From Eutreptiella sp. 'Long Island Sound 2002' (lineage: Eukaryota; Euglenozoa; Euglenophyceae; Eutreptiales; Eutreptiaceae): a DNA stretch of 64,000 nucleotides. The stretch spans positions 37,371,294-37,435,293 of the forward strand of contig OZ038383.1 of assembly GCA_964036045.1 (NCBI GenBank). The letters run 5' to 3'. The notes below the pieces were generated by a model. That model was not told the DNA's origin, searched no databases, and saw only the letters and a list, made by a program, of their open reading frames with translations. Shown piece after piece: positions 16,297 through 61,043 of this stretch (the stretch's first letter is position 1; every line of letters starts with the position of its first letter). Made by a program: the position numbers and the translations under genes.

Positions 16297-16408
16297 TGTC
16301 TTGGGAGGGGAGTGCATTAGGGTTGGCTTTCCCCCTTTGGGCTACCCCCCCACGGCATTGAACCCAAGAACGATCCAAGACCCCGACACACACAACATAC
16401 TCTTGGGG

Positions 16409-18341: not shown

Positions 18342-18351
18342 CTCCCCCTCC
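18342..18351 (-). other. Polypurine tract
   Basis: The minus strand reads GGAGGGGGAG directly next to the LTR start TGTAAGTGCGG. This is the expected primer for plus-strand DNA synthesis in LTR retrotransposons. Confidence 0.85.
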
Positions 18352-25050: not shown

Positions 25051-25189
25051 CCTCGTCCACTACGACGGAAGGATCCGCTGCCGGATCCAGGGGAGAGGAG
25101 ACAAGCGACCCTACATCAAGTAATGGTCGAGATGGAATCTGGGGATCATGCCTGAAATCACGTGGGGAGGGGCGATTTTCGTGGCTCCC

Positions 25190-28100: not shown

Positions 28101-28225
28101 TCGGGGCTGGCAAGACCAGTGGGGCAGGCACGCGAGGAGTCGACCTGAACGCTGCTGTTGGGGGTAGAACCGGAGACACGGACCCCAACGGAGGCGAGAG
28201 CAGCAACAACGGAAGCAAGATCCAT
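25190..28225 (-). CDS. gag: Gag polyprotein whose ATG lies inside the 5' LTR
   Basis: 1,011 codons from ATG 28,225 to TAG 25,190. The first ~54 codons are LTR sequence and the frame passes through the primer-binding site (encoding FHGSRGYL). The middle part (about 480-790) is helical and capsid-like. A C-x2-C...H...H motif (CSICLHLGSTNRAKTHSTGNH) stands where a zinc knuckle is expected. The tail is rich in Gly, Asn and Gln with RGRG repeats, fitting RNA binding. A later ATG after the primer site could be the real start, but the LTR-encoded extension has no stop. The terminator is UAG followed by GGGAGC, and the frame stays open afterwards for about 75 codons. Confidence 0.85.
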   Translation of the reverse strand: MDLASVVAALASVGVRVSGSTPNSSVQVDSSRACPTGLASPEPSGTINDPGQHFHGSRGYLNVVPLVSQPQLAPQYGPVDPAASGEVTITLPWCCANEALGGMPCASPSCPRRAQISSCGDPDYHPNPSRNWPSSSWNQPAYGDGNAPVELTDLAGTNTPYQRPHFETIDADLNDIEMGGPGEVPSYNRPVSWAQWDDHLSPEVTRNLEALEALCLLATSKLVGQERIASDFLMEYFFLLQEEINTRMWWRSQEDDSFAIFLQFWEASPFPKEKTKAPVAGPSAPHPPVSIRDDLAAAVEEGILEAARQASLEIRAEGAPQVDCWLRTTEISGPTACSGPSGHGMYCPADCSCRFQRDTELQLLKDQMQLIIQTLGIKDLFKTHMRSEGASSVEQATEPSEEATEIFSIAPSVDSKTTDARISRTKLKERVTISRSQSRTAKARTEAQNAKRTASRTAPPAADSNALAQLLLAQTLAGAGVANDAAKVSAITAGVGLDSLLNPTSLRLRQVAKQPKYNGNPRRWPQFQREFKLWVKTQKLQDDHFLMALFDCLEGAPANTWLRTWSDREDSSSPLTFDEVWEQLEVRGSRLPEDHYHQMLKNFPSFSRLILHEVQDKRQRFWNLVEEAEHSGEKFSSAELKNLIFDKIPSETAAPLRNKQSEEKVKTCWAEVEGFDASANRFSVRESLQKCSPTSFSKVKFTENTWKIKFNEHEDRDLFVQVLNRGVSFHGHRLKAKNWVFSFTPNELWEEVERLADAANQNFHQGLGGNKNTQQNTQNGAQKGNKKVNDTRNVQDHCSICLHLGSTNRAKTHSTGNHRWSPYDHKVIGENISNPQNSDRNDRQVHGGKAGKGNPPPSGGNKNTGGPGGSQGTGNRTPSGSGGQPNGQKNQNSNAGGGNRNPGQTPQSGTNKGNAPGSQGKGKGNPSGTPFSGKGRGRGDGGGPSSGGRGRGRGKGNHRVDQVSGADQVSDADRDYAENALNPADDPFQDEWVDESGCVHNVNAATGGQNA
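28046..28061 (-). other. Primer-binding site, initiator tRNA-Met type
   Basis: The minus strand reads TGGTAGCAGAGGCTAC immediately after the LTR end ...CACTTTCA. This matches the 3' end complement usual for initiator tRNA-Met primers. Confidence 0.85.
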
Positions 28226-28593
28226 GTTGAGTGTTATCCGGCAGAAAATCCCAGTCTATGAAGAAAATTGATGCGGATTTTACTATGCACATCTGAGTGT
28301 CCATATCTGTCTGAAAAGATTTAAATAAATCCGATTGTGAAAAATATTTGGCCGATCTGGCCCGCGAGCGCGCGTCAGCGGCAATGGCGATTCCAGGCAA
28401 ATGATCGGAACGCGGCGGATTTAGGGGGAATGGACCGCGGAATGAGATCCGGCATATCAGAAATATATAGGTCTGATTCTTAGACTGAGCTGCGAGGCGA
28501 CGATTCCGCCGAAGCAGAGAAAATGACCAAAATGTAGTCAATCTGGGGCAGATCTGTGAAAATCTGAGCAGATGGGGGCTAGCCGCACTTACA
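28062..28593 (-). repeat. 5' LTR of the chromovirus
   Basis: 532 bases, TG...CA ends, containing a TATATATTT box near 28,467 on the minus strand and the gag ATG at 28,225. Confidence 0.95.
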
Positions 28594-28870
28594 CTGCCAC
28601 TGTGCGCCGTGTCTCACCTGTGTACAGGAGCCTTGACGGCTGGGGACAACGTGGCGATTGCCATGGCGACGACACTGGGGACAGACGAGATAAAAATTAC
28701 GTAAGGACATGTTCGTCAGTTCGGTTGCGTTCGAGGGGTTCTGCCACTGTGCGCCGTGTCTCACCTGTGTACAGGAGCCTTAACGGCTGGAAACAACGTG
28801 CCAATTGCGATGGCAACGACATTGGGGAGTGCCATGCAACGAGGTTGGAGGGCGAGCGAGCAGTAGGCAG
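28594..28870. repeat. 147-base tandem repeat (insertion target)
   Basis: Units start with GCCACTGTGCGCCGTGTCTCAC at 28,596 and 28,743, 147 bases apart; the second fades after about 28,840. The unit junction TTCGAGGGGTTCTGCCACTGTG is the empty version of the site occupied by the chromovirus. Confidence 0.8.
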
Positions 28871-30599: not shown

Positions 30600-32924
30600 T
30601 TTCGGCCCCGGGGGGCCACCTGGTCGGGCCAGGTGATATCCTCCCCACCGGGTCCTAGTGGGGGGCCCTCCAAGACGCACCTCCTGCCTGGTGGCGGAGT
30701 CCCCCGGGTTCACAGAGCTCGGAGCCCCGTCCTTCCCCGGCGTCCCCGTTTCGCCACTCCCCGGTCAGTGCATCAATTCGCAGCCGTGGCTGCGGGAGCT
30801 TACCCACTGCGTCGCCCCCCTAATGCGTGGTCGCCCGGGGCGCCGGCGCCGCCGGGCCCGTGCTACTGGCGTGTCGCCAGTGGGACCCCCTTGGGCTGGC
30901 GCGGAGGCTGCCTAGCCTAGGGGCTGGGGCGTGGCGCTGTGCGCCACTACTGCCTTGGCGGGTGCAGTGCCCCGTCTGTGTGTGCGCGGCGCTCGCGGCC
31001 GGTTCGGGAGGTTCGGGCCGGTACCTGGCGTCGTGTCTCTGTCGTTTCCCCCTCCCCGCCCCGCGTGTTCTGCGCTGCGTGTGGCGGGCCGTCCCGTCTG
31101 GGTGTCCCTTACCCTCGCTCGCTGGTACGCCATTCCACGCGGTCTGTGCGTTCCGCGCGCTCTGTCCGGTTGCCCTTCCGGTAGTCCCCGCGTGTCCCTT
31201 TCGTGTGTGTGCGCTCGCGCTCTCGCGGTGTCCGCTCCCCCCCCCCCCGCTGGGTGGTGTGGCGCTCGCATCTCGCGTGGTCCCGGCACTGGGCGCTTGT
31301 AGGGCCGTTCCACGTGGTCCGTGCCCCTCCGCATGTCCTGCCCCGGTCCCTTGCTCCGTCTGGCGTGCTTGGGGGGGAGCGGTCCGGTCCCGGTTCCCCC
31401 CTACTTGGCTTCGGGTTGTGGGGGTGGCGGCAGGGCGTCCCCGGGGGGGGTGCCTTCTACCGTTGCGTGGGGCGTCTGGGGTCTTGCGCTCCCCCTCCCC
31501 CGACTGCCCGTCCACTGGGCGGGCTGTCGGGGTCCGCGATCCACGTGTTGTGGGCGCGGGCGTGCGGGTGTGGGGGCCCTGCTCTGTCCCCGTGGGGGCT
31601 GCGCGCCGCAGGGCGGGTCTGTGGCGTTCATATGCTGGGGGGCGGGCTGGGGGGGGGGGGGGCGTGCGCCGTACCCCCCGTTTGTGCGGCCGGGGCGGGG
31701 CCTGTAGGGCGGGGGGTCGCTCTGCCTCATCACGTCCCTCTGCCTTCCCTGGGCAGGCAACAAAGCGTGCTGTCCATGGGGGGCGTGGCCCCCCATACCA
31801 CTCCGGTTCGTGCTCACCCGGCTTCTCTGGGTACGATCTGTGCGGCGTCCCGGTGCGCAGGCGTGGGCTCGCTTGTTCTTCGCGGCCCCCTTGGGAGCCG
31901 GCGGCTGGGGCGGAGGGGCGGGTCGCACTCCGGCTCCCCTCTCGGGCGGGGGGGGACCATCCACCCTGCCTCGGGGGGTGGGGGCCGGGGCCCCCGCGGC
32001 TGGTGGGCTGGTGGGGGGGCGGGGGGGGGCGGGGGTGTCGCGCCGCGGCCTCCCTGCTCTCCTTCCGGGCGGCGGCCTGCGGTACTCCATCCTGGCCCTC
32101 TCCGTGTCGCCGGCGCGTTCCTTTCCGGCGTGCGCGTGCGGTCGGGGCTGAAGTGCCGCCCCGGGGTGGGGGGGGTGAGGGGCGGCCCGTGGACCGCTCC
32201 CCCAGGGGCCCCAGCAGACCTGAACCCCCCCTCTGTCATCCCGGAGTGGGCTGTGGTTACCGGAGGGTCATGTGGGGCGCGGCCTCCTTCCTGTTCCGTT
32301 GTGCGCGTTGCTCCGGCACGCCGGTGTGGGTTCGCGGGAGCAGGTCTAGCCGCCGTTCCCCTTACCGCGTCCCCGTCCCTTCTGGGGGGGGGGCGCCCCC
32401 CCGGCCCTGGGGGGGCGGAGGGCCGCGCCTGTGGCCCCCGAGCTGGGGTCGGTGCGGGGGGGGGGGGCGGGGGGGCCGCCCCTCCGCCCGCTCTCGGGCC
32501 TGTGTGGGAGGGGGGGGGGGGAGTGGGGGGGGGCCTTTGGTCCCCTGGCGACGCCTCTTGACGGCCGGGGGGGGGGGCGGGCGGCATGGCAGTCCTGGCC
32601 CCGGGGGCCAGTTATCGGCTTGGGGGGTCGCGCCCCTCCCCCGCCCCCCTCTACCTAGAGCCTGATCCTCGTGCAGGCCCTCGCTGGGGCCCCTCATCCC
32701 CCGGCCGTTGTCGCGCCGCGCTGGCCGGCCAGGGGTGGCCGTGAGGGTTAGCGGTCAGTGGTTAGCGGGCTGCGGGGCAGCAGGTTCCCCCCCGCGCTCG
32801 TTGTCTCCGCACTCTCTCCCGCGGGAGGTGGCACGCCCTCTTGCGTCGTGCTGTACCGTGGGGGGGGCGTGGGTCGGGGGGCCCAGCCCCCCCCCCCACT
32901 CTCTCGTATCCGCCGTCTGGGCCA
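30600..32924. other. GC-rich low-complexity end of the LINE-like element, no gene supported
   Basis: Long open frames exist on both strands (for example 612 codons on plus) but are made of Gly, Arg, Pro and Ala only, as expected from extreme GC content and long G runs. No RT or other domain is present. Confidence 0.5.
31415..31620 (-). repeat. Isolated copy of the LINE monomer (B-type)
   Basis: GGGGGTGGCGGCAGGGCGTC, CCGACTGCCCGTCC and the B-type block CCACGTGTTGTGGGCGCGGG match monomers at 58.0-58.6 kb in the same orientation. It lies at the downstream end of the element, so monomer sequence occurs at both ends, or a second element begins here. Confidence 0.6.
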
Positions 32925-35258: not shown

Positions 35259-35516
35259 TCAGTGCCGTGCCGTGGGCAGTGCCGTGTGGTGCTCTGCGGG
35301 GGGGAGGGGGGGAGGGGGTGGGGGGCCGGCTGTCGCGTCAGCCCCGCACGGCCGGGGGCCTGCGGCCATCCACCGGCACTGGGAGGGGAGGCGGGGGAGC
35401 CACGCGGCCCACACGTCGCGCCATAGCTCCCAGTCTGGGGCGGGGCCCAGGGCCCTGAGCCCCGGGGGGTCGTCGAGCGGTGTCGGGGGCAGCCGCACCA
35501 GGTGGACCCCCGTAAC
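35259..35516 (-). pseudogene. 3' part of LINE ORF3, separated by the transposon
   Basis: On the minus strand the frame after the insertion reads VTGVHLVRLPPTPLDDPPGL, then RALGPAPDWELWRDVWAAWL and a Pro-rich tail to TGA 35,259. It is in frame with the 46,245-47,222 part once the transposon and one GT are removed. Function unknown. Confidence 0.65.
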
Positions 35517-35556
35517 CACCTATGATTTTAGCAGCTGTTTTTTCCCAAAATTCAAA
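35517..35556 (+). repeat. Left terminal inverted repeat
   Basis: 40 bases identical to the inverted right end. After the repeat a looser match (GTCA after AAA) continues for a few bases. Confidence 0.95.
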
Positions 35557-35569
35557 AAGTCAACAAAAA

Positions 35570-36080
35570 GGGGTTTTTCGCGAGAAACGACCTATTTTTT
35601 TGGTTTCTACGGCCCCAAAATAGGGGGGGGGGGTCCTCCTACCCGAGTTTTGTCCAAAAATATCGAAAACCCTAAAATTTGGCCTATTTTGGGGTATTTT
35701 TGCCTGCTCTGGGCTGGTCCTGCAGAACAGTGCTGCACACCAGTGTACCTGCCTATAGAGGATTTTCGACAGAAATTCCAATTTTCTTTGGATTCTCTGG
35801 CCCCAAAATAGGGATGGGGGGGTTCCGAGCTTTCTCCCAAACCATCAAAAACCCTGGAATTCGGCGCATTTTGGACTATTTTTGTCTGCTATGGGGTGGT
35901 GCGGCAGAACAGTGCTGCACACCAGTGTACCTGTATAGTATAGTATAGGCACGAAAAAACCATGAAAATAGGTTTTGTACCCAAAAAGACCAAAAGTAAC
36001 CTTTTGTTTTAATTATACAACCCGCAAATAGCAGGGGGGGGGGGGTTCCTCCTAACCCATTGTTCCCCAAAAATAACAAC
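35570..36080. repeat. ~188-base tandem repeat, two clear and one decayed copy
   Basis: GGCCCCAAAATAGGG occurs near 35,611 and 35,799. Each unit includes CAGAACAGTGCTGCACACCA and a poly-G block. A third, diverged unit reaches about 36,080. Confidence 0.7.
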
Positions 36081-36260
36081 CTAAGCCTCAAACATGTGTG
36101 TGTACGGTGATAGGCACGCAAAAGCCTACCTATGAACCATATGGAAATGGACCACAAACGGTGCAAAATAGGGCCAAAAACACCTCAAATGTTCATCGCT
36201 CATCCCATTCTTATGCACATACTATCATACTTTATGTAGTTCTTTGGCGTATTTCGCTTT
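36081..36260. repeat. Single copy of the ~190-base satellite found at 44-45.7 kb
   Basis: Contains CATGTGTGTGTACGGTGATAG, CCTACCTATGAACCATATGG and CACCTCAAATGTTCATCG, the same landmarks as the array at 43.97-45.7 kb and in the same orientation. Confidence 0.75.
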
Positions 36261-38120
36261 TTTGCAACGAGCACCCTCCAATCGGGAGGGGGGGGTGGTT
36301 CAGCTGCTTGTTTCAGGCTAAAAAAAACGAACAATTTTTGATAGAAAAAATGGCTATTTTTCGCCGATTTTGTTGAAAAATGGCAGATTTTGGGGCATAA
36401 GAATGCTGTAAATTGTGTTTGGGCAATCGGTGTGTCCACACAGCATGCTTTTTTGCATCCAGCACCCTCAGAATGGGGGGGGGGGGGGGGGCTCTGCAAC
36501 TGCCTGTCTGAGGCCAAAATACTCAATTTTTGACCAAGAAACGGCCATTTTTGGCAGTTTTTCCATGAAAAATAGCAAATTTTGGTGCATACAAATGCTG
36601 TAGATTGTGCTTTCGTAGTCCGTGCGTGCATACAACTTGCTTTTTTGCATCCAGCACCCTCAAAATTGGGGGGGGGATCCTTCAACTGCTTGTACGAAGC
36701 CAAAAAAAATCGATATGTGACCAGAAAAGGGCCATTTGTGGCCGTTTTTTTCGTGAAAAACGGCAAATTTTGGTGCGTACGGATGCTGTAAATTGTGTTT
36801 GCGTGACCTGTGTGTCCCTACAATCTGCTTTTTCGTATCCAGCACCCTCAAAATAGGGGGGCAGTCTTCAACCGCTTGTCTGAGGCCAAAAAAAATCATT
36901 TTTTGACCAAAAAATGGCCATTTTTAGCCGTTTTTTCCATGAGAAATGGCAAATTGTGGTGCATACGGATGCTACAAAATGTGTTGTCATGATGTTTGTG
37001 TGACCACAACTTGCTTTTTTGCACCCAGCACCCTCAAATTAGGGGGGGGGGGGGTCCTTCAACTGCTTGTACAAAGCCAAAAAATCAATATTTGACAAAA
37101 AAACGGCCATTTTTGGCCGGTTTTCATGAAAAATGGCATATTTTGGTGCGTACGGATGCTGTAAATTGTGTTTGCGTGATCTGTGTGTCCCTACAATCTG
37201 CTTTTTCGCATCCAGCGCCCTCAAAATAGGGGGGAAACCAAAAATCCCAACTTTTGACCAAAAAAGGGCCATTGTTGGCCGTTTTTTCATGAAAAATGGC
37301 AAATTTTGGTGCATACGGATGCTGTAAATTGTGTTTGCGTGACCTGTGTGTGACCACAACTTGCTTTTTCACATCCAGCACCCTCAAAATAGGGGGGGGG
37401 GGGTCTTCAACTGCTTGTCTGAGGGCAAAAAAAATCATTCTTTGACCAAAAAATGGCCATTTTTGGCCGTTTTTTCCATGAGAAACGGCTAATTGTGGTG
37501 CATACGGATGCTACAAAATGTGTTTTCGTGATCTTTGTGTGACCACAACTTGCTTTTTTGCATCCAGCACCCTCAAAATAGGGGGGGGGGGGCCTTCAAC
37601 TGCTTGTACAAAGCCAAAAAATCAATATTTGACAAAAAAAGCGCCATTTTTGGCCGGTTTTCATGAAAAATGGCATATTTTGGTGCGTACGGATGCTGTA
37701 AATTGTGTTTGCGTGATCTGTGTGTCCCTACAATCTGCTTTTTCGCATCCAGCGCCCTCAAAATAGGGGAGAGCCCAAAAATCCCAACTTTTGACCAAAA
37801 AATGGCCATTGTTGGCCGTTTTTTTCATGAAAAATGGCAAATTTTGGTGCATACGGATGCTGTAAATTGTGTTTGCGTGACCTGTGTGTGACTACAACTT
37901 GCTTTTTCACATCCAGCACCCTCAAAACAGGGGGGGGGGTCTTCAACTGCTTGTCTGAGGCCAACAAACTCAATTTTTGACCGAAAAACGGCCATTTTTG
38001 GCCGTTTTTTCATGGAAAAACGGCAGATTTTGGTGCATTCGGATGTTGCAAATTGTGTGAGTCACGATCTGTGTGTCCCTACAATCTCTTTTTTCGCATC
38101 CAGCACCCTCAAAATAGGGG
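36261..38120. repeat. Satellite of 11 units with a 538-base higher-order repeat
   Basis: CAGCACCCTC-type landmarks lie near 36,265, 36,461, 36,653, 36,841, 37,028, 37,214, 37,377, 37,566, 37,751, 37,915 and 38,102. Most steps are 185-192; two are 163-164. From 37,028 a three-unit block of 538 bases is repeated once. Each unit has a poly-G tract and an imperfect hairpin around GGCCATTTTTGGCC. Frames across it have no protein meaning. Confidence 0.8.
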
Positions 38121-38723
38121 AGGGGGGTCCCTGACCTGTTGTTCAGGGGGCAAAGGCAACATTTTGGTACAGCCTGAAATATGGGGGGGGGGGGGCTTGG
38201 GATAATCTTTTTTTCAAACGCAACAAATGATGCCCAAGACGTCTTCCTTGTGGAGAAGGGGACCACCTTGAGAAATACAGAACCTGCATCCATCCCTGTG
38301 TGCACCATGGTCCGCACATGTTGACTGATAATTTGAGGACATTTGGAAAGAGCAACAACTTGAGCATGAAATTCTGGGCCAAATTGTGCACTGAGCAGTG
38401 CCTGCACTGAGTAATGCATTTGCCCCATGGGGTCCCTCCCTCCTCCAAGGAGCACAGCATTCCTGCACCCAAGGCCAATACTCATACTGCATTGGACTGT
38501 ATGCACTGGCTAGCAGAGGTTTGCTCGACGGCTTGCCAAACAAGATGATCTGAAACACCAGAATTAAATTAAAGACCACGGTCTCCATGCTCCCCAATAG
38601 GAGTGGGATTTGTTTTCAGATCCAGGAGGCCTCCATGGAGTAGGCCAGAACGGATGCCCCATAGAGAATGTTCCCAGGTATGGCCAACAAAAATCAGTAA
38701 ATACAGAGGTCCTGCCAAAAGAC
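38121..38723 (-). other. Non-repetitive segment with coding-like minus-strand frame, unassigned
   Basis: The minus frame around 38,470-38,200 reads QMHYSVQALLSAQFGPEFHA, VVALSKCPQIISQHVRTMVH and GSVFLKVVPFSTRKTSWASF. An overlapping frame near 38,590-38,480 contains a hydrophobic stretch (ETVVFNLILVFQIILFG). Both look like exon pieces, but I recognise no family and could not define splice sites. It may be another captured host fragment. Confidence 0.3.
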
Positions 38724-39096
38724 AGTGCAGTGTGCACAGTGCATGCGTACGGTGTGCACAGTGCGCATGTTCACAGTGCGTGTGTGAAGTGTGCGGAGTG
38801 CGTGCATGCGCACAGTGCAAATGTTCACAGTGTGTGCGTGCAGTGTGCACAATGCGGGCGACGATGAGTGCGTGCAGTGTGTATAATGCGTGCGTGCAGC
38901 GTGCACAGTGCGTGCGTGCAGCGTGCACAGTGCATGCGTGCAGTTTGCACAATGCGTGCGTGCCGTGTGCACAGTGCGTGCGTGCAGTGTGCACAGTGCG
39001 TGCGTCCAGTTTGCACAATGCGGGCGTGCAGCCTGCACAGTGCGTGTGTGCAGTTTGCACAATGCGGGCGTGCAGCGTGCACAGTGCGTGCGTGCA
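38724..39096. repeat. 22-base minisatellite, main array
   Basis: About 16 units of CAGTGTGCACAATGCGTGCGTG with variants. Since 22 is not a multiple of three and no frame holds a stop, all frames stay open and yield Cys/Ala/His/Val-rich 22-residue repeats that I regard as artefacts. Further patches occur at 39,729-39,884, 41,058-41,107, 41,328-41,374 and 41,541-41,606. Confidence 0.9.
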
Positions 39097-39528
39097 CACT
39101 ACAAACATTTTCATCAAGCCCCCATCCCCCATTTGGTTGCGTTAACGCCACCCTGCAATCGACGCTGCCGTAACCATTTGCCCAAATATCAAAAAAGCTG
39201 TCATAATGGTTGCCATGATAGCAACCACTGCCGCCATCGCTTTTCCTAGGGATGAAAAGTTGGAATGTGTTGTGAGAGGCGTTGAGGGACTCACTTACCG
39301 CCATGCCAGCGACCGCGCATCACAGGGGGTAGGTACCGAGGGTGGCAGAAACTGGATTCCTGCTTGCACAAAACAAAATTCAAAAAACAGTGAGACCCAC
39401 AGACTGATCACTGTATTCTGTCATGTGTTGCGGCCATGCAACTTTTTCGCATGAAATGGAATCCCTGCATGCGGTGGCATTACGTATTCCTACTGCCTTG
39501 ATAACCAATGCACAATGCAACAATGTAC

Positions 39529-39731
39529 CGCTTCAATGATCGTAACCACAACATTTCCAATCCACTCAATGAGCCCAAGCTTTTCGAGACGTGCATGAGC
39601 ACAAAGAGTGCTGCAAAGAACAAGAGGGTGCCCCACTCAAGGTGCTCCAGCAGGGGCTCCCTCTCTGTGTCTGCCAGCAGCACCAGTGTCATGAATCCAA
39701 GGATTGCAATCCAGAGAGCGTCAAATGCAGC
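39529..39731 (-). pseudogene. P-protein/OCA2-type exon, copy 1 (frameshifted)
   Basis: Same exon as 40,316-40,530 but with one base lost near 39,590, so the frame leaves the family after LFVLM. One substitution changes EHVEW to EHLEW. The upstream end runs directly into the 22-base minisatellite, so its splice acceptor is gone, and the donor has changed from GTACGT to GTACAT. Confidence 0.7.
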
Positions 39732-39928
39732 GTGCACAGTGCGTGCGTGCAGCGTGCACAGTGCGTGCGTGCAGTGTCCACAATGCGTGCGTGCAGCGTG
39801 CACAATGCGGGCGTGCAGCGTGCACAATGCGTGCGTGCAGTGTGCACAATGCGGGCGTGCAGCGTGCACAATGCGTGCGTGCACACTACAAACATTTTCA
39901 TCAAGCCCCCATCCCCCATTTGGTTGCG

Positions 39929-40146
39929 TTAACGCCACCCTGCAATCGACGCTGCCGTAACCATTTGCCCAAATATCAAAAAAGCTGTCATAATGGTTGC
40001 CATGATAGCAACCACTGCCGCCATCGCTTTTCCTAGGGATGAAAAGTTGGAATGTGTTGTGAGAGGCGGTGAGGGATTCACTTACCGCCATGCCAGCGAC
40101 CGCGCATCACAGGGGGTAGGTACCGAGGGTGGCAGAAACTGGATTC
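39929..40146 (-). pseudogene. Two small exon-like pieces with a 53-base intron (copy 2; also 39,142-39,359)
   Basis: After ...GTGCAAGCAG a 61-base piece (40,146-40,086) ends at GGCG|GTAAGT. A 53-base GT...TTTCATCCCTAG intron follows, then a frame-compatible piece (40,032-39,929) encoding KAMAAVVAIMATIMTAFLIF, a probable membrane helix, up to TAA. The same structure sits 787 bases away in copy 1. It does not match the next expected part of P-proteins, so either the gene is different here or exons are missing. Confidence 0.4.
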
Positions 40147-40315
40147 CTGCTTGCACAAAACAAAATTCAAAGAACAGTGAGACCCACAGACTGATCACTG
40201 TATTCTGTCATGTGTTGCGGCCATGCAACTTTTTCGCATGAAATGGAATCCCTGCATGCGGTGGCATTACGTATTCCTACTGCCTTGATAACCAATGCGC
40301 AATGCAACAACGTAC

Positions 40316-40530
40316 CGCTTCAATGATCGTAACCACAACATTTCCAATCCACTCAATGAGCCCAAGCTTTTCGAGACCGTGCATGAGCACAAAGAGTGCT
40401 GCAAAGAACAAGAGGGTGCCCCACTCAACGTGCTCCAGCAGGGGCTCCCTCTCTGTGTCTGCCAGCAGCACCAGTGTCATGAATCCAAGGATTGCAATCC
40501 AGAGAGCGTCAAATGCAGCTTCAGCACATT
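40316..40530 (-). pseudogene. P-protein/OCA2-type (ArsB/NhaD superfamily) transporter exon, copy 2
   Basis: The minus strand encodes ALWIAILGFMTLVLLADT, then the hallmark EWGTLLFFAALFVLM and GLEKLGLIEWIGNVVVTIIEA. This matches the membrane-helix pair of P-proteins (pink-eyed dilution/OCA2) and related anion/sodium transporters. The exon ends at a good donor GCG|GTACGT (40,316/40,315); a possible acceptor is ...ATCAAG at 40,531. Only this part of a ~500-800-residue protein is recognisable. I infer a host-gene fragment carried by the transposon; a real, split gene interrupted by repeats is the alternative. Confidence 0.75.
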
Positions 40531-40624
40531 CTTGATGTTACTGATTCCCATGAAACAGTACCCTTGTAGCCAGGTCCCAAAATAATGCGGTACATGCACA
40601 TGTTGTATCTTGGACACGCGGCAC

Positions 40625-40747
40625 CTTGAACAGGAGGGGGAGGAACGCCGCCAAGGCCTCTTGCATCCTCAATACCAAGGCGTCATCCGGCCTCAACGCC
40701 TCAACGGCGGCATATGAACCGACGGCAACATGTATCGGCGACTGGCC
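40625..40747 (-). pseudogene. Exon-like segment upstream of the P-protein exon
   Basis: Between CACACAG (acceptor-like) and AAG|GTGCCG (donor-like) lie 41 codons: GQSPIHVAVGSYAAVEALRP and DDALVLRMQEALAAFLPLLFK. Composition is protein-like; the GQSPIHVAV start recalls an ankyrin repeat. Intron phase to the following exon does not fit cleanly, so linkage is uncertain. Confidence 0.35.
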
Positions 40748-41650
40748 CTGTGTGATGCACAGAAGGGGATGCAAAGCTCATCAGCGTGTCTGTCACAATG
40801 CCGCCTTTCGCAATGAACAGACTTCAACTTTCCTTTTGCGCCAGCGCTCATTCGGGCAGGAGTGCTCACAGTGGGTCAGTTTTTGGAGGATGACTTGAAC
40901 GAGTGTCTTCGCCCCCATGTGGCACCCTATTTATCGCAAAGCGATCGCAGAATTTGCTGCATCTGCAGTCCGGAACGCGCCGTTCCAGCATGCCTTGCAT
41001 CGAGTCCACCCCACAAAAAAAAATGGGTTAAGAGGCGATGGCCAAGAGAATAAGATGCGCGCAGTGTGCACAATGCGTGCGTGCAGTGTGCACCGTGCGT
41101 GCGTGCATACTTCGTGTACTCGAGGAAAGTTTTGGCTTCCTTAACCCATCCCTAAAACCCTTTCCCATCTCTCTCCATTTCAAGGTCGTGCAGGGCCACT
41201 TGGCTGGCGTCGTTCATGGCATCATTTCGGAATGCTTGGATACACACCCGCCCTGTGCCCCGAAGCCCCCCCAACATCACAAAGCATGCACAGGGCACGC
41301 ACAACGCATGCATGCCCCACCTCTGCCGCGTGCGTGCAGCGTGCACAATGTGTGCGTGCAGTGTGCACAGTGCAAAACGCAATGCCAAAGGCACGAGCAA
41401 AAGCTCCACAGTGTCAAAAAGACATAATCTGAGTCGGGAACGGACAAACAGCGAAGGTGTTCTGTCACCCAGACCCAGAGATTTTCGCTGAAACTCTTAG
41501 CAGACAGAAGGCACTAATATTGTGACACACTGATATTGTGCATGCGTACGTGCATGCAGTGTGCACAATGCGTGCGCGCAGTGTGCACAGTTGGTGCGTG
41601 CGTGCAACATGGGATGTGCACGGGGCACACAGTGCATACCATCAAGAGCC

Positions 41651-41798
41651 GAGGCGTGATACGTTGCTACTTCTTGTTTTCTCTTGATGCGTTGGCCGCA
41701 AGCTCCAACATCTCATTGCTCAGGAACTCCAACACAGCAGCCACATGCACAGTTGCTCCCTTGCCAACACTGGAAGAGTACCGCCAATTTGCGGGATA
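41651..41798 (-). pseudogene. Histone H2A fragment with an internal TAG
   Basis: The minus frame reads VGKGATVH, then [20 protein letters not shown] and RENKK, which is the second half of the H2A histone fold (helices 2-3, canonical ...LAAVLEYL.AEILELAGNA..DNKK). A TAG at 41,667-41,669 follows, then in the same frame QRITPR, the start of the next conserved H2A block, after which similarity ends. The N-terminal half and docking domain are absent. The core is diverged from canonical H2A, so the source is a variant or a long-decayed copy. Confidence 0.85.
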
Positions 41799-41799
41799 G

Positions 41800-43200
41800 A
41801 CAACATTGCTTTGAGAAGAGAAGTGGAGCATCATGCATCATGCATCATGGATTGCAACCGCAGCAGAATTATCAACCACCACAACGGCAAGCCAAACCAC
41901 CACTTGAATGGAGAGATGGGACAGGCGGGCAAAAAATGACCGACACAACTGTGATATTTCCTCTGCGATATTTCAACTATGATATTTCAAGCACGGACCC
42001 ACAAGCTCCCTAACGGTTGCTTCTATCCTCCACCACTGGGTCGAATTTAAGCATTCCCATACAATTCACCCAACATACCATCAATATGCAAATGCAAATG
42101 TGTGTGCATGCATGGAGTTATCTTGTTGGGTTCCACAAATCACTCAGGTTGGTAATCACGACGAAATCACAACGAAATCACTCTAATCCACATTTGTGGC
42201 TTCAAAAGTGCAAATATGGCTATTCAGGGGCACTTTTTGCACCCTCCGGAAGATTATCTTGAGTAAAAGGCATGTAGGGTCACAATTTGTTGCTTGGCAA
42301 GCCTAACCGAGCTCTAGGGAAAAATTTCATCAATGCCAAATCACACGAAAGCACAGCGACAGCAATGAAATCAACCATTGTGGGTTCAAAAGTGCAAATA
42401 CAGCTGTTTGGGAGATTGTTGCCACCAAGTGTTTCTAGGACATTGCCTAAGCCGGCTCTTTGGGTTGCCATGCAACGCGCGTTGCAATGCACATTGGTAC
42501 ATTCCACTGAGTGCGTGTGGTGTGTGTTGTGTGTGTGATATTTCATCTGCCCATAACGAGACACATGACATGGGCAACCATCCAATTTGAAACCGGATGA
42601 AATTTCCCCCATACCTCGTTAGGTCACAAACATGATATGAGTGCGATGTGGGCAATGAAGCAATGGCAGCGCAAACACAAAGCCAGGCAATGGGGGTGTT
42701 CCTAGCCGCGGCTAGCCGCGGCTGGGCGGGTTGGACCCCCCCTCCCCCCCCCCCCCCTCCCCCCCCCCCCCCCGTGGCTGGCCACGGCTGGCCAAAAATG
42801 GCTGGGGGGGAAATTTGGCCAAAATCAAGGAAAACGAAGAAAAAACGGCCACACTTGGGGTCCCTAGGGGTGCAAGCCAACCCCTTTTGACTTGTGGCTA
42901 TATGTGCTACTGCATTTGGGGCTACTAGGTTGTGTGGCCTCTTTTGAAGTGCGAAATGACCACCCTCCCTCCCATGCTCAATTCTACATCCCCGGTCCTG
43001 TCGACGCATGTGAATTTGTTGTGCAAAGATGCCAACAAGTTCACACATTTTTTCCTATCTAAAAAACACATGCACTGGGGCAGCTCCATGCATGCTCGCC
43101 GACCTTAGTTGGACACGGGGACGCTACAACACACTGCAACGGCAGTTGTGTTGGTGATTGTGCAACTGGACCAAACATCCCATAACCACATCCCGATGCA
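41800..43200. other. No gene seen; unique AT-rich DNA with a long poly-C block
   Basis: Contains two similar stretches around TTCAAAAGTGCAAATA (42,191 and 42,378), inverted GGCTAGCCGCGGCT motifs and C-runs at 42,735-42,772. Frames are short and not conserved. Confidence 0.5.
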
Positions 43201-43450
43201 TAATGCAACTAATTACCTAATTACCTAATTACCTAATTACCTAATTACACAAACATGACAAACGTAGGTGCATGGAAATTGTACCAATACCTGCTGCAGA
43301 GACACATCATCATCATGTAATCTGAAGAGCAAAGGCAAAGAGGCAAAGAGGCAAAATGCAAAAGTGCAAGGCCCAACGCAATATGGCTAGACGGTTGGGT
43401 GGCTAGGTGACAAGGTGGCTGGGTGGCTGGGTGGCTGGGCGGCTGGAGCC
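43201..43450. repeat. Microsatellites: (ACCTAATT)n and (GGCTGGGT)n
   Basis: ACCTAATT is repeated four to five times at about 43,207-43,247. GGTGGCTG-type 8-base repeats lie at about 43,388-43,445, followed by poly-C. Confidence 0.8.
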
Positions 43451-43639
43451 CCCCCCCCCCCCGCCCCCTCCCCCCCACTGACCGGAACCCGCCCAATGTT
43501 CTCAAACTGCCTCATCTACGTCAGCATAGGAGCCATTGCTTAGCCCTGTGGGTTGTACCAAAGGGAAATCACATTTGGTTGCCATGCATGCTCGCAATTC
43601 ACTATTCCCTCACTGTCTTTTGACCATTCGTTCACCCTT

Positions 43640-43955
43640 AGTTCACTGTCTTTTCACCCTTTGCTCACCCTACCTAGGAAGGCGTAATACACAGGACAAG
43701 CCTCCTCTTGGCACAAAAAGCACGCAACAAGGGCATGAAGGCAGTGAGACAATCTTTGTATATTAGAATATGTGGTGTGGAGCAATGTCATGTTCGATCA
43801 CCGTCTTTTCACCCTTCGCTCACCCTACCTCGGAAGGCGTAATACACAGGAAATACCTCCTCTTGGCACACAAAGCACGCAACAATGGCATGAAGGCAGT
43901 GAGACAATCTTTGTATATGATTATATGTGGTGTGGAACAACGTCAGGTATGACAA
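43640..43955. repeat. 155-base tandem duplication
   Basis: GTCTTTTCACCCTT at 43,648 and 43,803 opens two copies that share GGCGTAATACACAGGA and GCAGTGAGACAATCTTTGTA. Confidence 0.8.
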
Positions 43956-45715
43956 GAAATTTGCAATACTTGTCCACCGTGGATATGGACCACAAAAGGT
44001 GCAAAAATGGGCCGAAAACACCTCAAATCTACATTGTTCAACCCACTCCTGTGCACATAGTATCATATTTCATTTATTACCTAGCATTCAAATACTTATA
44101 ATACCATCTTATGCCCCAAACATGTGTGTGGACGGTGATAGGTGATCAAAACCCTACCTATGAACCATATGGATATGGAGCACAAATGGTGCAAAAACGA
44201 GCCAAAAACACCTCAAAACTACATTGTTCATCCCATGCTTGTGCCCGTAGTATCATATTTTATTTCTTACCCAGCATTCAAATGCTTACAATACCATCCT
44301 ATGCCCCAAACATGTGTATGGACGGTGATAGGTGATCAAAACCCTACCTATGAACCATATGGATATGGAGCGCAAAAGGTGCAAAAACGGGCCAAAAACA
44401 CCTCAAATCTACATCGTTCATCACATTCTTATGCCCGTAGTATCATAGTTTATGTAGTTCTTATCATTCAAATGCATACAATACCAACCCAAGCCCCAAA
44501 CATGTGTGTGGACGGTGATAGGTGATCAAAACCCTACCTATGAACCATATGGATATGGAGCACAAATGGTGCAAAAACGGGCCAAAAACACCTCAAAACT
44601 ACATTGTTCATCCCATGCTTGTGCCCGTAGTATCATATTTTATTTCTTACCCAGCATTCAAATGCTTACAATACCATCCTATGCCCCAAACATGTGTGTG
44701 GACGGTGATAGGTGATCAAAACCCTACCTATGAACCATATGGATATGGAGCGCAAAAGGTGCAAAAACGGGCCAAAAACACCTCAAATCTACATCGTTCA
44801 TCCCATTCTTATGCCCGTAGTATCATAGTTCATGTAGTTCTTATCATTCAAATGCATACAATACCAACCCAAGCCCCAAACATGTGTGTGGACGGTGATA
44901 GGTGATCAAAACCCTACCTATGAACCATATGGATATTGGACCACAAACGGTGCAAAATAGGGCCAAAAACACCTCAAATCTTCATCGTTCATCCCATTCT
45001 TATGCACATACTATCATATTATATGTAGCACCTATCATACAAATGCTTACAATAACAACCTAAGCCCCAAACATGTGTGTGTACGGTGATAGGCACGCAA
45101 AAACCCACCTATGAACCATATGGAAATGGACTACAAAACGGTGCAAAATAGGGCCAAAAACACCTCAAATGTTCATCGTTCATCCCATTCTTATGCACAT
45201 ACTATCATATTTTATGTAGTTATTATCATTCAAATGCATACAATACCAACCCAAGCCCCAAACATGTGTGTGGACGGTGATAGGTGATCAAAACCCTACC
45301 TATGAACCATATGGATATTGGACCACAAACGGTGCAAAATAGGGCCAAAAACACCTCAAATGTTCATCGTTCATCCCATTCTTATGCACATACTATCATA
45401 TTATATGTAGCACCTATCATACGAATGCTTACAATAACAACCTAAGCCTCAAACATGTGTGTGTACGGTGATAGGCACGCAAAAGCCTACCTATGAACCA
45501 TATGGAAATGGACCACAAAACGGTGCAAAAAAGGGCCAAAAACACCTCAAATGTTCATTGTTCATCCCATTCTTATGCACATAGTATCATATTTTATGTA
45601 GTTCTTATCATTCAAATGCATACAATACCAACCCAAGCCCCAAACATGTGTGTGGACGGTGATAGGTGATCAAAACCCTACCTATGAACCATATGGATAT
45701 TGGGCCCCATGGTGC
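43956..45715. repeat. ~190-base satellite array, about nine units, with 380-base alternation
   Basis: CATGTGTGTGGACGGTGATA or a close variant lies near 44,121, 44,311, 44,501, 44,691, 44,881, 45,072, 45,263, 45,454 and 45,644. Alternating units share CATGCTTGTGCCCGTAG or CATTCTTATGCCCGTAG variants, giving a 380-base higher-order period that also creates identical 127-codon artefact frames. Confidence 0.9.
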
Positions 45716-46204
45716 ATGAGAAAGGGATGAATAGCCTAGAATAAAGGCAAAACATCGCTTGTCATGTAGGCTTCTACCAATGGTGATGACAATTTGTTCA
45801 TATATCACCTCTATACCACCTCTTCCAGCCCTGTAAGGCCCTCTACATGGCCTCCATAGACCCTAAAACCATGAAAAAGAGTGGTTTTTGGCTAGAAAAG
45901 TGTGCATTTCTCAAAATCTGTGCCTGCCAATCTGGATTTTTTTAGGTCAGCAGCAAGGTATTGATCTCGGGGACACGCTCATGCCTTTACTTTGCTTCCA
46001 ACTGCGAAAAAAAGTGGACTTTTTGGCGATTTTCTATTGCGCACGGCGCTCGGGAATCTGAAACTCGCGTACGCGGCAGTTGTTGACAGTTGATCTGCGG
46101 CTCCAGCTCCAGCGACAGCATAATTTTGTTAAAAGTTTGAGAAAGCACAAAAACAACAGTACTACTGTGTACAGTTTCGTATCGCCATTCTGAAAATGCA
46201 TGAC
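45716..46204. other. Subterminal region of the transposon, no gene seen
   Basis: Unique AT-rich sequence between the satellite and the right TIR, without a supported frame. Confidence 0.5.
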
Positions 46205-46244
46205 TTTGAATTTTGGGAAAAAACAGCTGCTAAAATCATAGGTG
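46205..46244 (-). repeat. Right terminal inverted repeat
   Basis: Inverted copy of 35,517-35,556 with no mismatch by hand comparison. Confidence 0.95.
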
Positions 46245-47222
46245 ACGGCAGTGACCTCCTGTGTTCGCAGGAAGGTGTGTACTCCGTCCCGTGCCGCGGG
46301 CGCCGGGAGGGGGGGGCGGGGTACGGGTGTTGCCCCATAGAGGTGGGTGGGGGTGATCCCCAGGATCCGCCCCGGGTCCCCGCGGGTCGCGACGACGAGG
46401 AGGAGCAGGGGGGTGCCAGGGCACTCTTGCCAGAGGACCTGCCCCCTGTGGTGGGCACCCCTGGTTCTTGAGAGGGGGGGGGACAGGTCTGGGTTAGCCC
46501 AGCCGCGGGGCGCGTGCGTCGCCGGCGGGAGGGCGGGGCACCAAGTGGGCCCCCTGGGGAACGCCTCGCAGACGACGGCGTACAGGGGGGGTAGGCCTGG
46601 TGCCGTCGTACACCGGGTTGGTCGGCCGGGGGCGGGCGGACGCCTCGTCCGCGCCTTCCACGAACACCGTGACCTCGCCCACCTCCAGGTCCTCGTCCGG
46701 CGGGTGTAGAAGGTGGAGCGCCGCATCCAGCTCGGACACTCCTCCCGGGTACGTGGCCCGCGCCTGGTTCAGGTACGGGGCCGCGTCCCCGGGGTAGCGC
46801 GTCCTGAGGGCGTGCAGCAAGGCTGGGGCGCTGCTGCGGAGGGACATGGCAGACCCTGCTCCCGTCAGCCGCAGGGTGTCCCCGATGGACAGGGGCCGGC
46901 CCGACCGATTGGACTCGCGCCACTCCATCTAGTGCCCGTAGAGGACCGCCTCCGGGCTGATGAGCCCCGGCTGGACGGCGTTCACGATCCGGTGCATTGC
47001 CGGGAGCAGCGTAGGGGCCCCCGCTCGGTTCAGGGCGCGGACGGCCGGGAGGGCGGTCTCGTTGAGGATAGCCCTCGCACTGCCCTCCAGGTCACACCGT
47101 GCGGCAGCGTGCGCTTCGTGTGCCTCCGCCACCGCGTCCGCCACCAGGCCCCGGACGGCCGCCTCCTGCGCTCTGCGGCGGGCCTTGGTGTGTCCCGGCC
47201 CATCCCCCCGTCGGCGTGGCAT
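46245..47222 (-). pseudogene. 5' part of LINE ORF3, interrupted by the transposon
   Basis: ATG at 47,222 (MPRRRGDGPGHTKARRRAQE) starts a basic, then helical frame (VADAVAEAHEAHAAARCDLE). A TAG at 46,929 is followed at once by ATG in the same frame. At a C7 run (46,585-46,591) a 1-base shift leads to YAVVCEAFPRGPTWCPALPP and onward to ...FLRTQEVTAV at 46,245, where the transposon begins. The frame resumes at 35,516. Small RNA- or protein-binding role possible; no known domain. It follows the RT ORF by about 40 bases. Confidence 0.6.
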
Positions 47223-47262
47223 GGTGCCTCTGTGCTCTCCAAAGGGCGGCGGCGGGTGGGGG

Positions 47263-51153: not shown

Positions 51154-52960
51154 GAGGATCGCCAGGATGACGTCCTGCACCACTTTCGGTGGCGCGAGGG
51201 TGTTAAGGCACCAGTGGTGCACCGCCGCCAGGCGTAGGCCGGTGCTTGCGCTGCAGGGAGAACTCCCCGTCCGGCTGCAGCTGGAGTCCCAGGTAGGGGA
51301 CGGAGTCTGCCGCTGGTACCCAGTGCCACGGGTTTTCCAGGTGGGGGCAGAGGCGCAGCTGCAGGCCCGGGACCCCCTCCGTGGTGGCCATGGCGCACTT
51401 GCGGGGGTTGAGCTCCATGCCCATCATCCCCAGGTACGCGGCCACCGCCTCCACGCCCTCGACGAAGTGCTGCAGCGTGTGGGCCACCACCAGCAGGTCG
51501 TCGATATAGGCCTTGATGAGGCCGTGCTCAGCCCCTCCCGGCGGGCGCAGGCGGTGCCCCTGTGCCCTGAGCAGGGGCTCCAGCAGGAGCGCGTACAGCA
51601 GGGGGCTCTCGGGGTTGCCCTGCCGGACGCCGCGTAGCATGTAGACGGGCTGCGTTAGCCCGTGTGCTGTGACGATGCGCAGCCTGGCGCACGTGTGGAG
51701 GAAGAGCACGAGGTCGATGACGTCCGGCGGCACGGAGAGGTGGCGCAGGATGAGGTGGAGGGCGCCGTGTGGGGCGGTGTCGAAGGCGTTGCGGGCGTCA
51801 AAGGAGAAGACGTAGTTGGGCCTTCCCCGCTGGAGCTGCCACTGCGCCATGGACAGCGGGGGGCCTGTGTTGGAGCCAGGGAGGGCCCCCTGCTGCCAGT
51901 CGCTGACCACTCCGTGCCGTGTGAGCACTTCCGTGATGCGCTGGGTGAGGGGGCCCGTGAGCAGCTTCATGTCCAGCTGGCCCAGGGCTATGGGCCTGTA
52001 GTCGTCCAGTCTGGCAGAGCCCGGTACCTTGGGGCTGAGCCAGATGTGCGCGTCCCTCCAGTGCATCGGCGGCGGGGCGCCGCGGAGGATGGCCCGGTAG
52101 GAATTGACCAGGAGCCACTGTACGGGTGCTGGGAGGGCCTTGATGAAACGGGCCTCCACGTGGTTGGGACCTGGGGCCTTGCCGTCATCCTTGTCAAGGG
52201 CGGACTTCAGGTCCTGCATGGAGTACTGCTGGACCTGTGTCCAGGCCCCCTCAGGGACCCGGGGGACGTGGCGGCCGAGGACTGCCTGGAAGCCCGGGAG
52301 GTCCACCGGGCGTTTGTCATACAGTTCTCGCCAGAAGGCGCGAACTGCGAACATCACGTCGTGGGCCTCCGTGAGGAGCGTTTGGGTGTTGGGGACCCGC
52401 ACGTTCCAGAGGCCTGACGGGCCCGGGGCCTCTACCTCCATGGCTCCCCGCACGACTTTCCATCGCTGGGCGATGTCGGGGGCGTGGCGGCGCCAGAAGT
52501 CCTTGATGGCGCGCTTGCGGTCTGCCGCCAGGAGGGCGCGGAGCTGGCGAATGTCCTCCTCGAGGGCGGCTGCTTGCCTCTCCAGCTCCTCCTGTAGCTG
52601 GCCCTGTGTGGTCGGGCGGAGCCCGGGCGACACACCCTGCAGCTCCTCCGTGAGCCGGAGCGCCACCTCGGACCGGATGCCATGCCTGGCCGCGTCTGCC
52701 TGGTACGCTGCCGGCGCGCGCGCTGCCAGGGTGTCATAGCGGAGGACCGCTGCCTGGAGCTGCTTTCCGCTCTCCGGGGGGTCCCCCTCCGCCGGGTTCG
52801 TCCCCGCCGGGGACGGCTGCCGGCGTCCCACCACACGCGCCAGGGCGTCATGCGTCGCGTGGAGGTGTTCGAACACCTTGTCCACCGCGGCCGCGGGCAT
52901 GGACCCGTAGTCGTGCTGCTCTGCGGGACCCAGCCAGGGCGCCAGGGAGGGTTCATCCTG
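51154..52960 (-). CDS. LINE ORF2, reverse transcriptase domain
   Basis: The frame reads EQHDYGSMPAAAVDKVFEHL into a coiled region, then RT motifs: DDGKAPGPNHVEARFIKALP, PKVPGSARLDDYRPIAL, FSFDARNAFDTAPHGAL (first catalytic Asp), RGVRQGNPESPLLYALLLEP and YIDDLLVVAHT (YIDD at 51,497-51,508, where most LINEs have FADD/YADD), then ELNPRKCAMATT. The main frame stops at 51,203. From about 51,233 the sense passes to another frame (RLAAVHHWCLNTLAPPKVVQ) until 51,153. It would copy the element RNA at the nicked target. Confidence 0.85.
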
Positions 52961-53907
52961 CGCGCGGTGACCGCCGCCCACAGGCAGTGTTGGACGGGTG
53001 CGGCCTCGGCGTCGTACGGGAGGAGGCGGCCCTCCGTGTGGCTGTAGGGGGTGGGCATCGCCGCGCGCCTCGCTGCGCTGAGGAGACCCGGCAGGCCCAG
53101 GCGGACCGGGAGGTGGTCCGAGCCGACCACCTGGGGGCGTGCCATGCCGCGAGCCCAGGCGCTTTCCCGCAGGGACCACGGCAGGAGGGGCTCGTTGACC
53201 AGGAAGGTGTCCACCCTGTGCCGGGACGGGTGGAGCGTGGGGGTCATGTCCTCCTCGCCGCCTGCCGCGGCCCTTCGGAAACCGCAGGCGTCCCAGCCCG
53301 CTCGGAAATGCTCCGTGGCCGGGTTTGCGGGGACATCCATGTTGATGTTTGTGTCGCCGGCGATGACCACCGGGTGCCTCCCGCCGAGGCTGCGTGCCGT
53401 GGCATACATTTGTATGTCGGCCCAGAACGCCGCTCGTCCCGCCCACGGGGAGCAGCCTGCTTGCGGCCCGTGGACGTTGATGAGGGTGAGGCCTCCTCCG
53501 TCCGTGCGGATCTCCAGGGCCGCGGCCTTCCCGGGGACAATTTCCGTGAAACTGAGCACCTCGTGCTCCGCCACGTACTTGCTGCTGACTGCGATGAGGA
53601 GGCCCCCCCCTCTCCAGGTGGAGGTGGCTCCCGTCTCCGCCAGCCGGCTGCTGAAGAAGGCGGTGTACCCCTTGTCCCGGAGCGCCGCGGCCACGTGCAT
53701 CTCCCGCGCCCGGGTGGCGATCCCCGTTTTCTGGAGCATGATGGCAAAGCCCCCCTCCTGGGGCAGCATGCCAGTGATGAGGTGCTCCTTGTCGGTGCAG
53801 GCCGCCGGCCCCCGGCGCCGCCGGAGTGTGTCCCGGAGGGACCGGTCTGGCGGCACGAGGCCGTTGCGCAGGTTCCACGAGAGGAGCCACAGGGCGTCGC
53901 CCGCCAT
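52930..53907 (-). CDS. LINE ORF2, APE-type endonuclease domain (catalytic Glu to Lys)
   Basis: ATG at 53,907; numbering from it. Exonuclease-endonuclease-phosphatase motifs: SWNLRNG with N12, LQKTGIAT where the metal-binding Glu of LQET is Lys60 (AAA for GAA), GGGLLIAVSSKY, LINVHGPQ (146), VIAGDTNINMD (D185, N187), RVDTFLV (D233) and GSDHLPV (S263-H265). The domain nicks target DNA for target-primed reverse transcription. Loss of the Glu should abolish cleavage, so this copy cannot move by itself. The next frame (RT) is entered near 52,930-52,960. Confidence 0.85.
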
Positions 53908-53919
53908 GTCCTCCCGCAG

Positions 53920-54480
53920 TCAGCTATCCCGCATCGGCATGGCCGCTGGGTTCGCCGGCGCAGCCAGTGCATCTGGTTGCGCCGCATCCGCTGAGCCCGT
54001 TCCCAGCGGGGCCCACAGGGGGGCCCGGGGGACCGGGGGAGCCAGGGGGGCCAGGGGGGCCAGCCCCGTGGGGATGGACATGGACCCTGGTGGGGCCGCA
54101 CCGCCGGCCCCCGGGGCCGCTCTGGGTGCCTCCTCATCTCTGTCTGCGTGGTCGGCTGCCTGGGGCCTGGGGTGCCGGATGTACGGGGCGTGCCATGGGG
54201 ACCTCCGTGCTCTCCCCTGCAGGATGTTGGTGGCCGCCTCCTTGTCGTCCGCCGGGGCCGCAGCGTGCACCGCGTGCCACGCCAGGTGTTCCAGCATTGC
54301 CCCGCTTGTGTAGTACTTGTCCGCACACAGGGGGCATTTCGTCGTCTCCGTGGCCCCTCGCGCCGGGGGGAGCGGCACTGAATTCCGAATGGCGCCCTCT
54401 GCCGCTGGTTCGAAGGGCAGGTTGGCCAGTGGCACCGTGTGTGGCGCCAATGTGCGGCCCGGGGCCGCCGCATCGAGGGC
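53920..54480 (-). CDS. C2H2 zinc-finger segment between ORF1 and endonuclease
   Basis: In the same frame as both neighbours but separated from them by TGA at 54,481 and TGA at 53,920. It encodes one C2H2 finger, CPLCADKYYTSGAMLEHLAW with the second His four residues later (C-x2-C-x12-H-x3-H), then a Pro/Ala-rich linker. N-terminal C2H2 fingers precede the catalytic parts in several LINE clades and help target binding. If both TGA codons derive from CGA, ORF1, finger and endonuclease were once one polyprotein; otherwise 54,481 ends ORF1. Confidence 0.6.
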   Translation of the reverse strand, partial: ALDAAAPGRTLAPHTVPLANLPFEPAAEGAIRNSVPLPPARGATETTKCPLCADKYYTSGAMLEHLAWHAVHAAAPADDKEAATNILQGRARRSPWHAPYIRHPRPQAADHADRDEEAPRAAPGAGGAAPPGSMSIPTGLAPLAPLAPPVPRAPLWAPLGTGSADAAQPDALAAPANPAAMPMRDS

Positions 54481-60600: not shown

Positions 60601-61043
60601 GGGCGTGGGGACCCAGTACCGGCCCCACAGCGTGCGCCCTTGCGGGCCGGCGTTGCTCGCTGTGGGGGTGGCGGAGGGGCGTCCCCGGGGGGGGTGCCTT
60701 CCACCATTGTGAGGGGCGCCTGGTGTCAGGCGCTGTCCCTCCCCCGGCCGCCCGTCCTCTGGAGCGGGCAGCCAGGGTTCCGCGTCCCGTGTGTCCCGGG
60801 TGCGGTCGGTGCGGGCGTGGGGACCCAGCACCGGCCCCACAGCGTGCGCCCTTGCGGGCCGGCGTTGCTCGCTGTGGGGGTGGCGGAAGGGTGTCCCCGG
60901 GGGGGGTGCTTTCCACCGTTGTGAGGGGCGCCTGGTGTCAGGCGCTGTCCCTCCCCCGGCCGCCCGTCCTCTGGAGCGGGCAGCCAGGGTTCCGCGTCCC
61001 TTGTGTCCCGGGTGCGGTCGGTGCGGGCGTGGGGACCCAGCAA
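57640..61043 (-). repeat. 16 tandem ~212-base monomers upstream of LINE ORF1
   Basis: The landmark GTGAGGGGCG(C/T)CTGG or a variant occurs at 57,749, 57,962, 58,170, 58,385, 58,592, 58,804, 59,016, 59,228, 59,438, 59,649, 59,861, 60,072, 60,284, 60,497, 60,709 and 60,921, steps of 207-215. The five units nearest ORF1 include two B-type units (58,020-58,140 and 58,440-58,560) alternating with A-type; the eleven farther units are all A-type and closely alike. By position they match the promoter monomers of L1-type elements. Frames through them are artefacts. Confidence 0.9.

Follow-up and report, generated by a model that had tools for sequence, protein, structure and literature searches.

The 64,000-nucleotide stretch of Eutreptiella sp. 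'Long Island Sound 2002' DNA analysed here (the window; C6:37371294-37435293 in an assembly of 2,280,300,865 bases) contains a 10,728-bp insertion (35517-46244) inside an open reading frame (ORF) of a long interspersed nuclear element (LINE). This insertion is probably a non-autonomous cut-and-paste passenger, hereafter type A, moved in trans by a transposase like those of the CACTA-Mirage-Chapaev-Transib/RAG1 (CMCT) clade, encoded by coding members of the same family, hereafter type B, with target duplications of 1 bp and sometimes 2 bp. We put at about even the chances that the family represents a new RAG1/CMCT-type lineage, attacking its target strands with a one-base stagger at a palindrome centred on that base and having a passenger form that spreads host exons and satellite arrays.

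The interrupted LINE and the transposon family

The initial annotation had described a 10.7-kb insertion with perfect 40-base terminal inverted repeats (TIRs) splitting a LINE ORF, and its coordinates were right: the two arms are 100% complementary over 40 bases, with no pairing past base 40. Merging the flanks with a single AC (46245 to 35516) restores the sequence ...EVTAVTGVHLV..., the uninterrupted ORF proposed in that annotation. An open frame at the rejoined site is by itself little proof, because GC-rich DNA has long open frames in every register, and a 446-aa frame is likewise open across the rejoined flanks. A codon-usage scan scored against the reverse transcriptase (RT) frame identified the EVTAVTGVHLV register as the coding frame at the junction. 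Homology search with the rejoined LINE piece found 501 proteins, and among the best 120 of these the site is contiguous in every one (16 residues, at most 6 substitutions and no indel), with exact AVTGVHLV in 86; some of the 90%-identity clusters of LINE homologues represent more than 300 sequences (327 in P0103, 358 in P0109). Since homologous proteins are contiguous across the site, the 10.7 kb is an insertion relative to these LINE copies, with its ends fixed to the base. The RT part of the host LINE has 101 homologous proteins, some with an APE domain (PF03372). At 47% GC, the element is AT-rich, as had been stated, only relative to its surroundings (mostly 65-78% GC) and not in absolute terms.

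The terminal 21-mer of the element has 1,205 exact occurrences in the assembly (597 + 608), and its reversed control has none. The first 100 places all lie on contig C1; their neighbours within 20 kb comprise 25 convergent, 0 divergent and 2 same-strand pairs, so that the TIR does recur elsewhere as inverted pairs, a check that had been proposed. The convergent pairs range from 330 bp to 12.7 kb and have differing flanks; inverted ends at many independent sites are as in TIR cut-and-paste DNA transposons. All 25 pairs were compared together with the window copy, every copy being picked by the identical 21-base end. Searches of viral contigs found no terminal 21-mer and no relatives of the LINE protein or of the type B protein.

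The long family members are mainly of two types with common ends. Type A comprises the window copy, L023, L024 and L036 (9.5-12.7 kb), each of the latter three spanning 93% of the window element, and is defined by interior satellite arrays and a duplicated host segment with a transporter exon; neither the window element nor its type A siblings contain a visible transposase. Type B comprises L022, L025, L027, L028, L030, L032 and L034 (8.9-11.1 kb), which are 97.6-99.3% identical in pairwise comparisons. The ends of the window element are about 95-97% identical to those of L023, L024 and L036, compared to about 88-90% between the ends of types A and B. Judging from their sequences, the shorter copies seem to have arisen from A or B by deletion, and extra DNA is present inside L026, L036 and L038. 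Copy L036 sits within a 16-bp tandem repeat (GATGGTGAGTCCCCAC).

The interior of the window element bears out its description as a long non-autonomous element with satellites and host-gene pieces (Table 1). The repeat block at 36256-38127 is present in type A copies and their derivatives and absent from L025 and L034, the type B copies used for comparison. In the second copy of the host-gene segment, an exon running from 40510 to 40325 or lower codes for part of a transporter resembling chloroplast dicarboxylate transporter 1, of the CitMHS type (E 1.8e-6 to dicarboxylate transporter 1, PDB 9mcr_A; E 1.1e-6 to Pfam CitMHS, short of the family's cut-off); in the first copy the exon is one base short. 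Satellite arrays and host-gene sequence would thus be spread together by transposition of type A. By eye, the minus strand of 40580-40760 resembles ankyrin-repeat sequence and may be another captured exon. The 801-bp insertion at 42693-43493 is missing in L036 and in the L023 and L024 matches; it has C-runs and weakly similar ends (GGGGTGTTCC/GGAACCCGCC), and is perhaps a different small transposon.

Type B, with three ORFs on one strand (328, about 571 and about 632 codons), is the coding relative with the same ends for which a search had been suggested; its middle ORF would encode the transposase mobilising both A and B. Many single type B copies have at least one broken ORF. A genome search with the middle ORF yielded 1,442 candidates, of which the best 96 were scored; these are 94-100% identical, and 74 of the 96 have no internal stop (counted from rows). 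The many near-identical type B copies with an open putative transposase frame suggest recent activity. A search of 5.8 billion proteins gave six relatives of the middle protein, including one 121-member cluster. Each of the six matches fetched type B copies with at least 76% identity, and no divergent homologue was found in the same set. For a GT-AG intron between the middle and last ORFs there is a good acceptor before DPLKRANG, and among 49 donor/acceptor combinations no convincing donor was found.

Target duplication and target site

The usual target duplication of the family is 1 bp, not 2 bp. Of another 20 type B copies from other parts of the genome, 18 were read at both ends (the left end of the other two lay outside the fetched stretch); one base is shared in 16, two bases in two (GA and TC) and three bases in none, and no set among 20,000 reshuffles reached 16 one-base sites. 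The 26 other sites, those of the 25 C1 pairs and the window, comprise 14 with one base, six homopolymers compatible with one or two, three with two (AC in the window, TA in L009, AT in L036) and three with none. Over all 44 sites this amounts to 30 one-base, six homopolymer, five two-base cases and three cases with no shared base, with a flanking base common to both ends in 36. The 2-base duplication reported initially is therefore correct for the window copy and does not hold as the family norm.

The shared base in the 16 one-base type B copies can be any of the four (G6 C4 A4 T2). Precise empty sites show one duplicated base for L018 and two for L036, and the window empty site has AC once; those of L034 and L023, located in a satellite, are mostly compatible with one duplicated base. 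Aligned on their common base (N), the 36 sites give the consensus C C M Y N R K G G. Its columns are most symmetric about the single duplicated base (r 0.84, a value reached by 6 of 5,000 column-order shuffles). In the proposed mechanism, the CAC..GTG ends would be joined to the target strands with a stagger of usually one base and occasionally two, at sites loosely resembling CCMY-N-RKGG, giving duplications of 1 bp (here 2 bp).

The type B protein and its possible relatives

The 558-aa middle ORF of L032 has its sole CxxC at 273-276, 19 residues past D254, followed by H473-x4-H478 and, 20 residues on, by E498 in SSEGGE. RAG1 has C727/C730, H937/H942 and, again 20 residues on, E962 in SEGNE (numbering in agreement with PDB chain 9jpu_A); presuming D708 as its aspartate, the RAG1 spacing from D to CxxC is also 19. 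The pattern of the CMCT clade, C(2)C and H(3-4)H between the second D and the last E, would thus be present as C273-C276, H473-H478 and E498. E495, considered earlier as the last catalytic residue, was replaced by E498 on recounting the spacing. The exact RAG1-like order and spacing occurs in 47 of 100,000 shuffles of the L032 protein. Residues 473-498 (HYFLEH...SEGGE) are identical to RAG1 937-962 at 8 of 26 positions without gaps. For the C-terminal local alignment to RAG1 the score is 52, the mean of shuffled sequences being 25, and 3 of 5,000 shuffles attain it; the score of the whole protein was reached in 1 of 1,000 shuffles, compared to 391 of 500 and 452 of 500 for ORF1 and ORF4. These modest similarities point to the CACTA/Transib/RAG1 (CMCT) clade, a provisional placement.

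The family shares CA..TG-type termini with the CMCT clade, in the form of its CAC..GTG ends, as well as the C(2)C/H(4)H motifs. It differs in that available parts of the literature give 2-5 bp duplications for CMCT members, against mostly 1 bp here and clearly 2 bp in five of 44 sites, and in that its protein has no profile-level match, the similarity to RAG1 being seen in shuffle tests only. No report of a CMCT element with a 1-bp duplication was found in the open-licence PMC literature, subscription papers being outside the scope of that search. With RAG1 and Transib the type B protein shares the D-CxxC spacing of 19, H(4)H and the 20 residues to the E of SEGxE, whereas the first acidic residue and the N-terminal regions are unmatched; RAG and Transib, moreover, make 5-bp target duplications. 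Pack-type elements (Pack-MULE, Pack-CACTA) are, like type A, non-autonomous TIR elements with host exon sequence, and differ from it in that type A additionally has long satellite arrays. In the PHIS group (Harbinger, ISL2EU, Spy), the part of the source available describes no duplication or one of 1 to 4 bp (PMC10045372), so that 1-bp duplications can occur there too; the type B protein differs in having no Pfam match of any kind and in its C(2)C/H(4)H arrangement.

The length of a target duplication reflects how far apart the two active sites lie within the strand-transfer complex. If the proposed mechanism is correct, a 1-base stagger in a RAG1-like enzyme would offer a sharp test of how stagger geometry is set, 1-bp and 2-bp events within one family would mean that this geometry can slip, and the passenger form would illustrate the joint spread of host exons and satellite arrays.

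Several observations weigh against a type A passenger moved by a CMCT-like type B enzyme. Regarding the target, none of the 36 sites matches all eight consensus positions and 11 match the inner four; complementarity across the dyad is not raised within individual sites, the symmetry being present at column level only; and the empty site of L013, a diverged match, lacks an extra base. Regarding the protein, the RAG1 spacing and similarity tests were devised after it had been seen, 156 of 20,000 shuffles contain a looser motif order, and the choice of D177 as the first catalytic residue is a guess. In the shuffle test against RAG1, an unrelated LINE ORF reaches 5 of 500, and the shuffle scores are for this reason support, not proof. 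The type B middle protein has zero Pfam-A matches by hmmscan at E up to 10, including Transposase_21 (PF02992), and none at E up to 10 in NCBIfam, which is prokaryote-oriented; phmmer searches of PDB, run with the complete protein and with its C-terminal part, did not reach RAG1, and the AlphaFold model is unusable (predicted local distance difference test score 30.6, 5 similar sequences). In the seven C1 copies the type B ORFs are without purifying selection, with replacement/silent ratios of 3.3-4.7 versus a neutral expectation of 2.5-2.7, as expected of dead copies and offering no support for coding. Lastly, sites compatible with two bases make up 7 of 10 among A-related copies and 4 of 28 among B-related ones (Fisher p 0.002), in a grouping made by hand after seeing the data that omitted L022 (lacking a repeat of 1 or 2 bp) and the unassigned L012, L014, L021, L026 and L038.

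Because A sites are more often compatible with two bases than B sites, type A may be moved by another transposase, namely a diverged sister enzyme making 2-bp duplications, and the AC of the window would be either an uncommon outcome or the usual one for type A. The divergence of A ends from B ends, larger than that among the four type A copies, fits this alternative, which we consider possible yet doubtful: every compared copy was chosen by the identical 21-base end, and no second coding form was seen among them. Five proteins that are about 10% divergent (P0224-P0228) mostly differ mutually by 15-21%, and therefore fit scattered old copies; a second autonomous subfamily behind them, considered at one point, was left unsupported by these differences. 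One of the five, P0226, is type B-like and matches the window LINE (53345-53638) over its first 98 residues, either through another insertion into the LINE or through a gene-calling fusion.

That the window copy is an ordinary non-autonomous CACTA/EnSpm element with a 2-bp duplication is less probable still, and we regard it as unlikely. CAC..GTG ends, arrays in the terminal regions, a captured gene piece and the 2-bp repeats of the window, L009 and L036 all speak for it. CACTA/EnSpm elements make 3-bp target duplications, or 2-3 bp in some, and 3 bp is also the figure in the accessible portions of the literature; against this, 30 of the 44 sites share the outermost base only, with six further homopolymers, and none of the 18 type B copies read at both ends has a 3-bp repeat. 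The termini (CACCTATG) read CACCT rather than CACTA. Given these ends, the 1-bp norm and the lack of a Pfam match, the family should not be filed as CACTA/EnSpm, and the CACTA-like label given initially survives at clade level, in the CAC..GTG ends and the RAG1/CMCT-like protein. Insertion without any duplication, the matching base belonging to the element or to a target preference, appears very improbable. Some PHIS elements make none, according to the part of the source available (PMC10045372), and the L013 site would agree; the occurrence of all four bases as the shared base and the shorter empty sites of L018, L036 and the window oppose it. The passenger mobilised by a type B enzyme thus remains our preferred reading. 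The insertion, its ends, the family, the ends common to A and B, the open type B frames, the duplication lengths and the symmetric target are shown by the sequences; which protein acts as transposase, its catalytic residues, the mobilisation of A by B and the way the host sequence was captured are inferred.

Feature coordinates and other elements of the window

Table 1. Window coordinates of the type A element, its parts and the interrupted LINE.
Feature	Position	Strand	Basis or remarks
Type A non-autonomous transposon	35517..46244		10,728 bp; TIR pair, empty site in LINE homologues, siblings
Left 40-bp TIR	35517..35556	+	starts CACCTATGATTTTAGCAGCTG
Right 40-bp TIR	46205..46244	-	complementary to left arm
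Target duplication AC, left copy	35515..35516		flank comparison
Target duplication AC, right copy	46245..46246		flank comparison
Left end common to type B	35517..36075		about 88% identical to L025 and L034
Repeat block, ~186-189 bp	36256..38127	+	Tandem Repeats Finder (TRF) rows 36256-37769
Presumed captured host-gene segment, tandem pair	38939..40519	-	copies 97.2% identical
Nested insertion, 801 bp	42693..43493		flanked by CAATG (5 bp)
Right end	43980..46244		common to type B over 44155-46244, 89-90% identical to L025 and L034
190-bp tandem array in right end	43980-45700		tandem-repeat scan
LINE ORF, 5' part	46245..47230	-	about 410-aa ORF downstream of RT; frame breaks; outer limit approximate
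LINE ORF, 3' part	35262..35516	-	in-frame continuation after one AC
RT part of host LINE	51206..53923	-	PF00078, E 3.6e-22

A GC-rich satellite of 212 bp adjoins the LINE, with 16 units at 57689-61047 and a further stretch at 31407-31595; family copies L023 and L034 sit in the same kind of satellite. Elsewhere in the window, a Ty3/gypsy element of chromovirus type (17809-28601) is bounded by ~540-bp direct repeats that are 98.2% identical, and its pol ORF (20009-24349, minus strand) matches RT, RNase H, integrase and chromodomain. Tandem 4-kb direct repeats at 8321-12412 and 12311-16408 are 88.7% identical and contain sub-repeats of about 200 bp. Scans of the window found no Rfam family at the gathering threshold and no tRNA. 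Six of 12 fetched contig ends (L083, L087, L088, L090, L091 and L092) consist of TTAGGG repeats, with 77-83 units counted in 500 bases, and none of TTTAGGG; several contigs thus reach telomeres.

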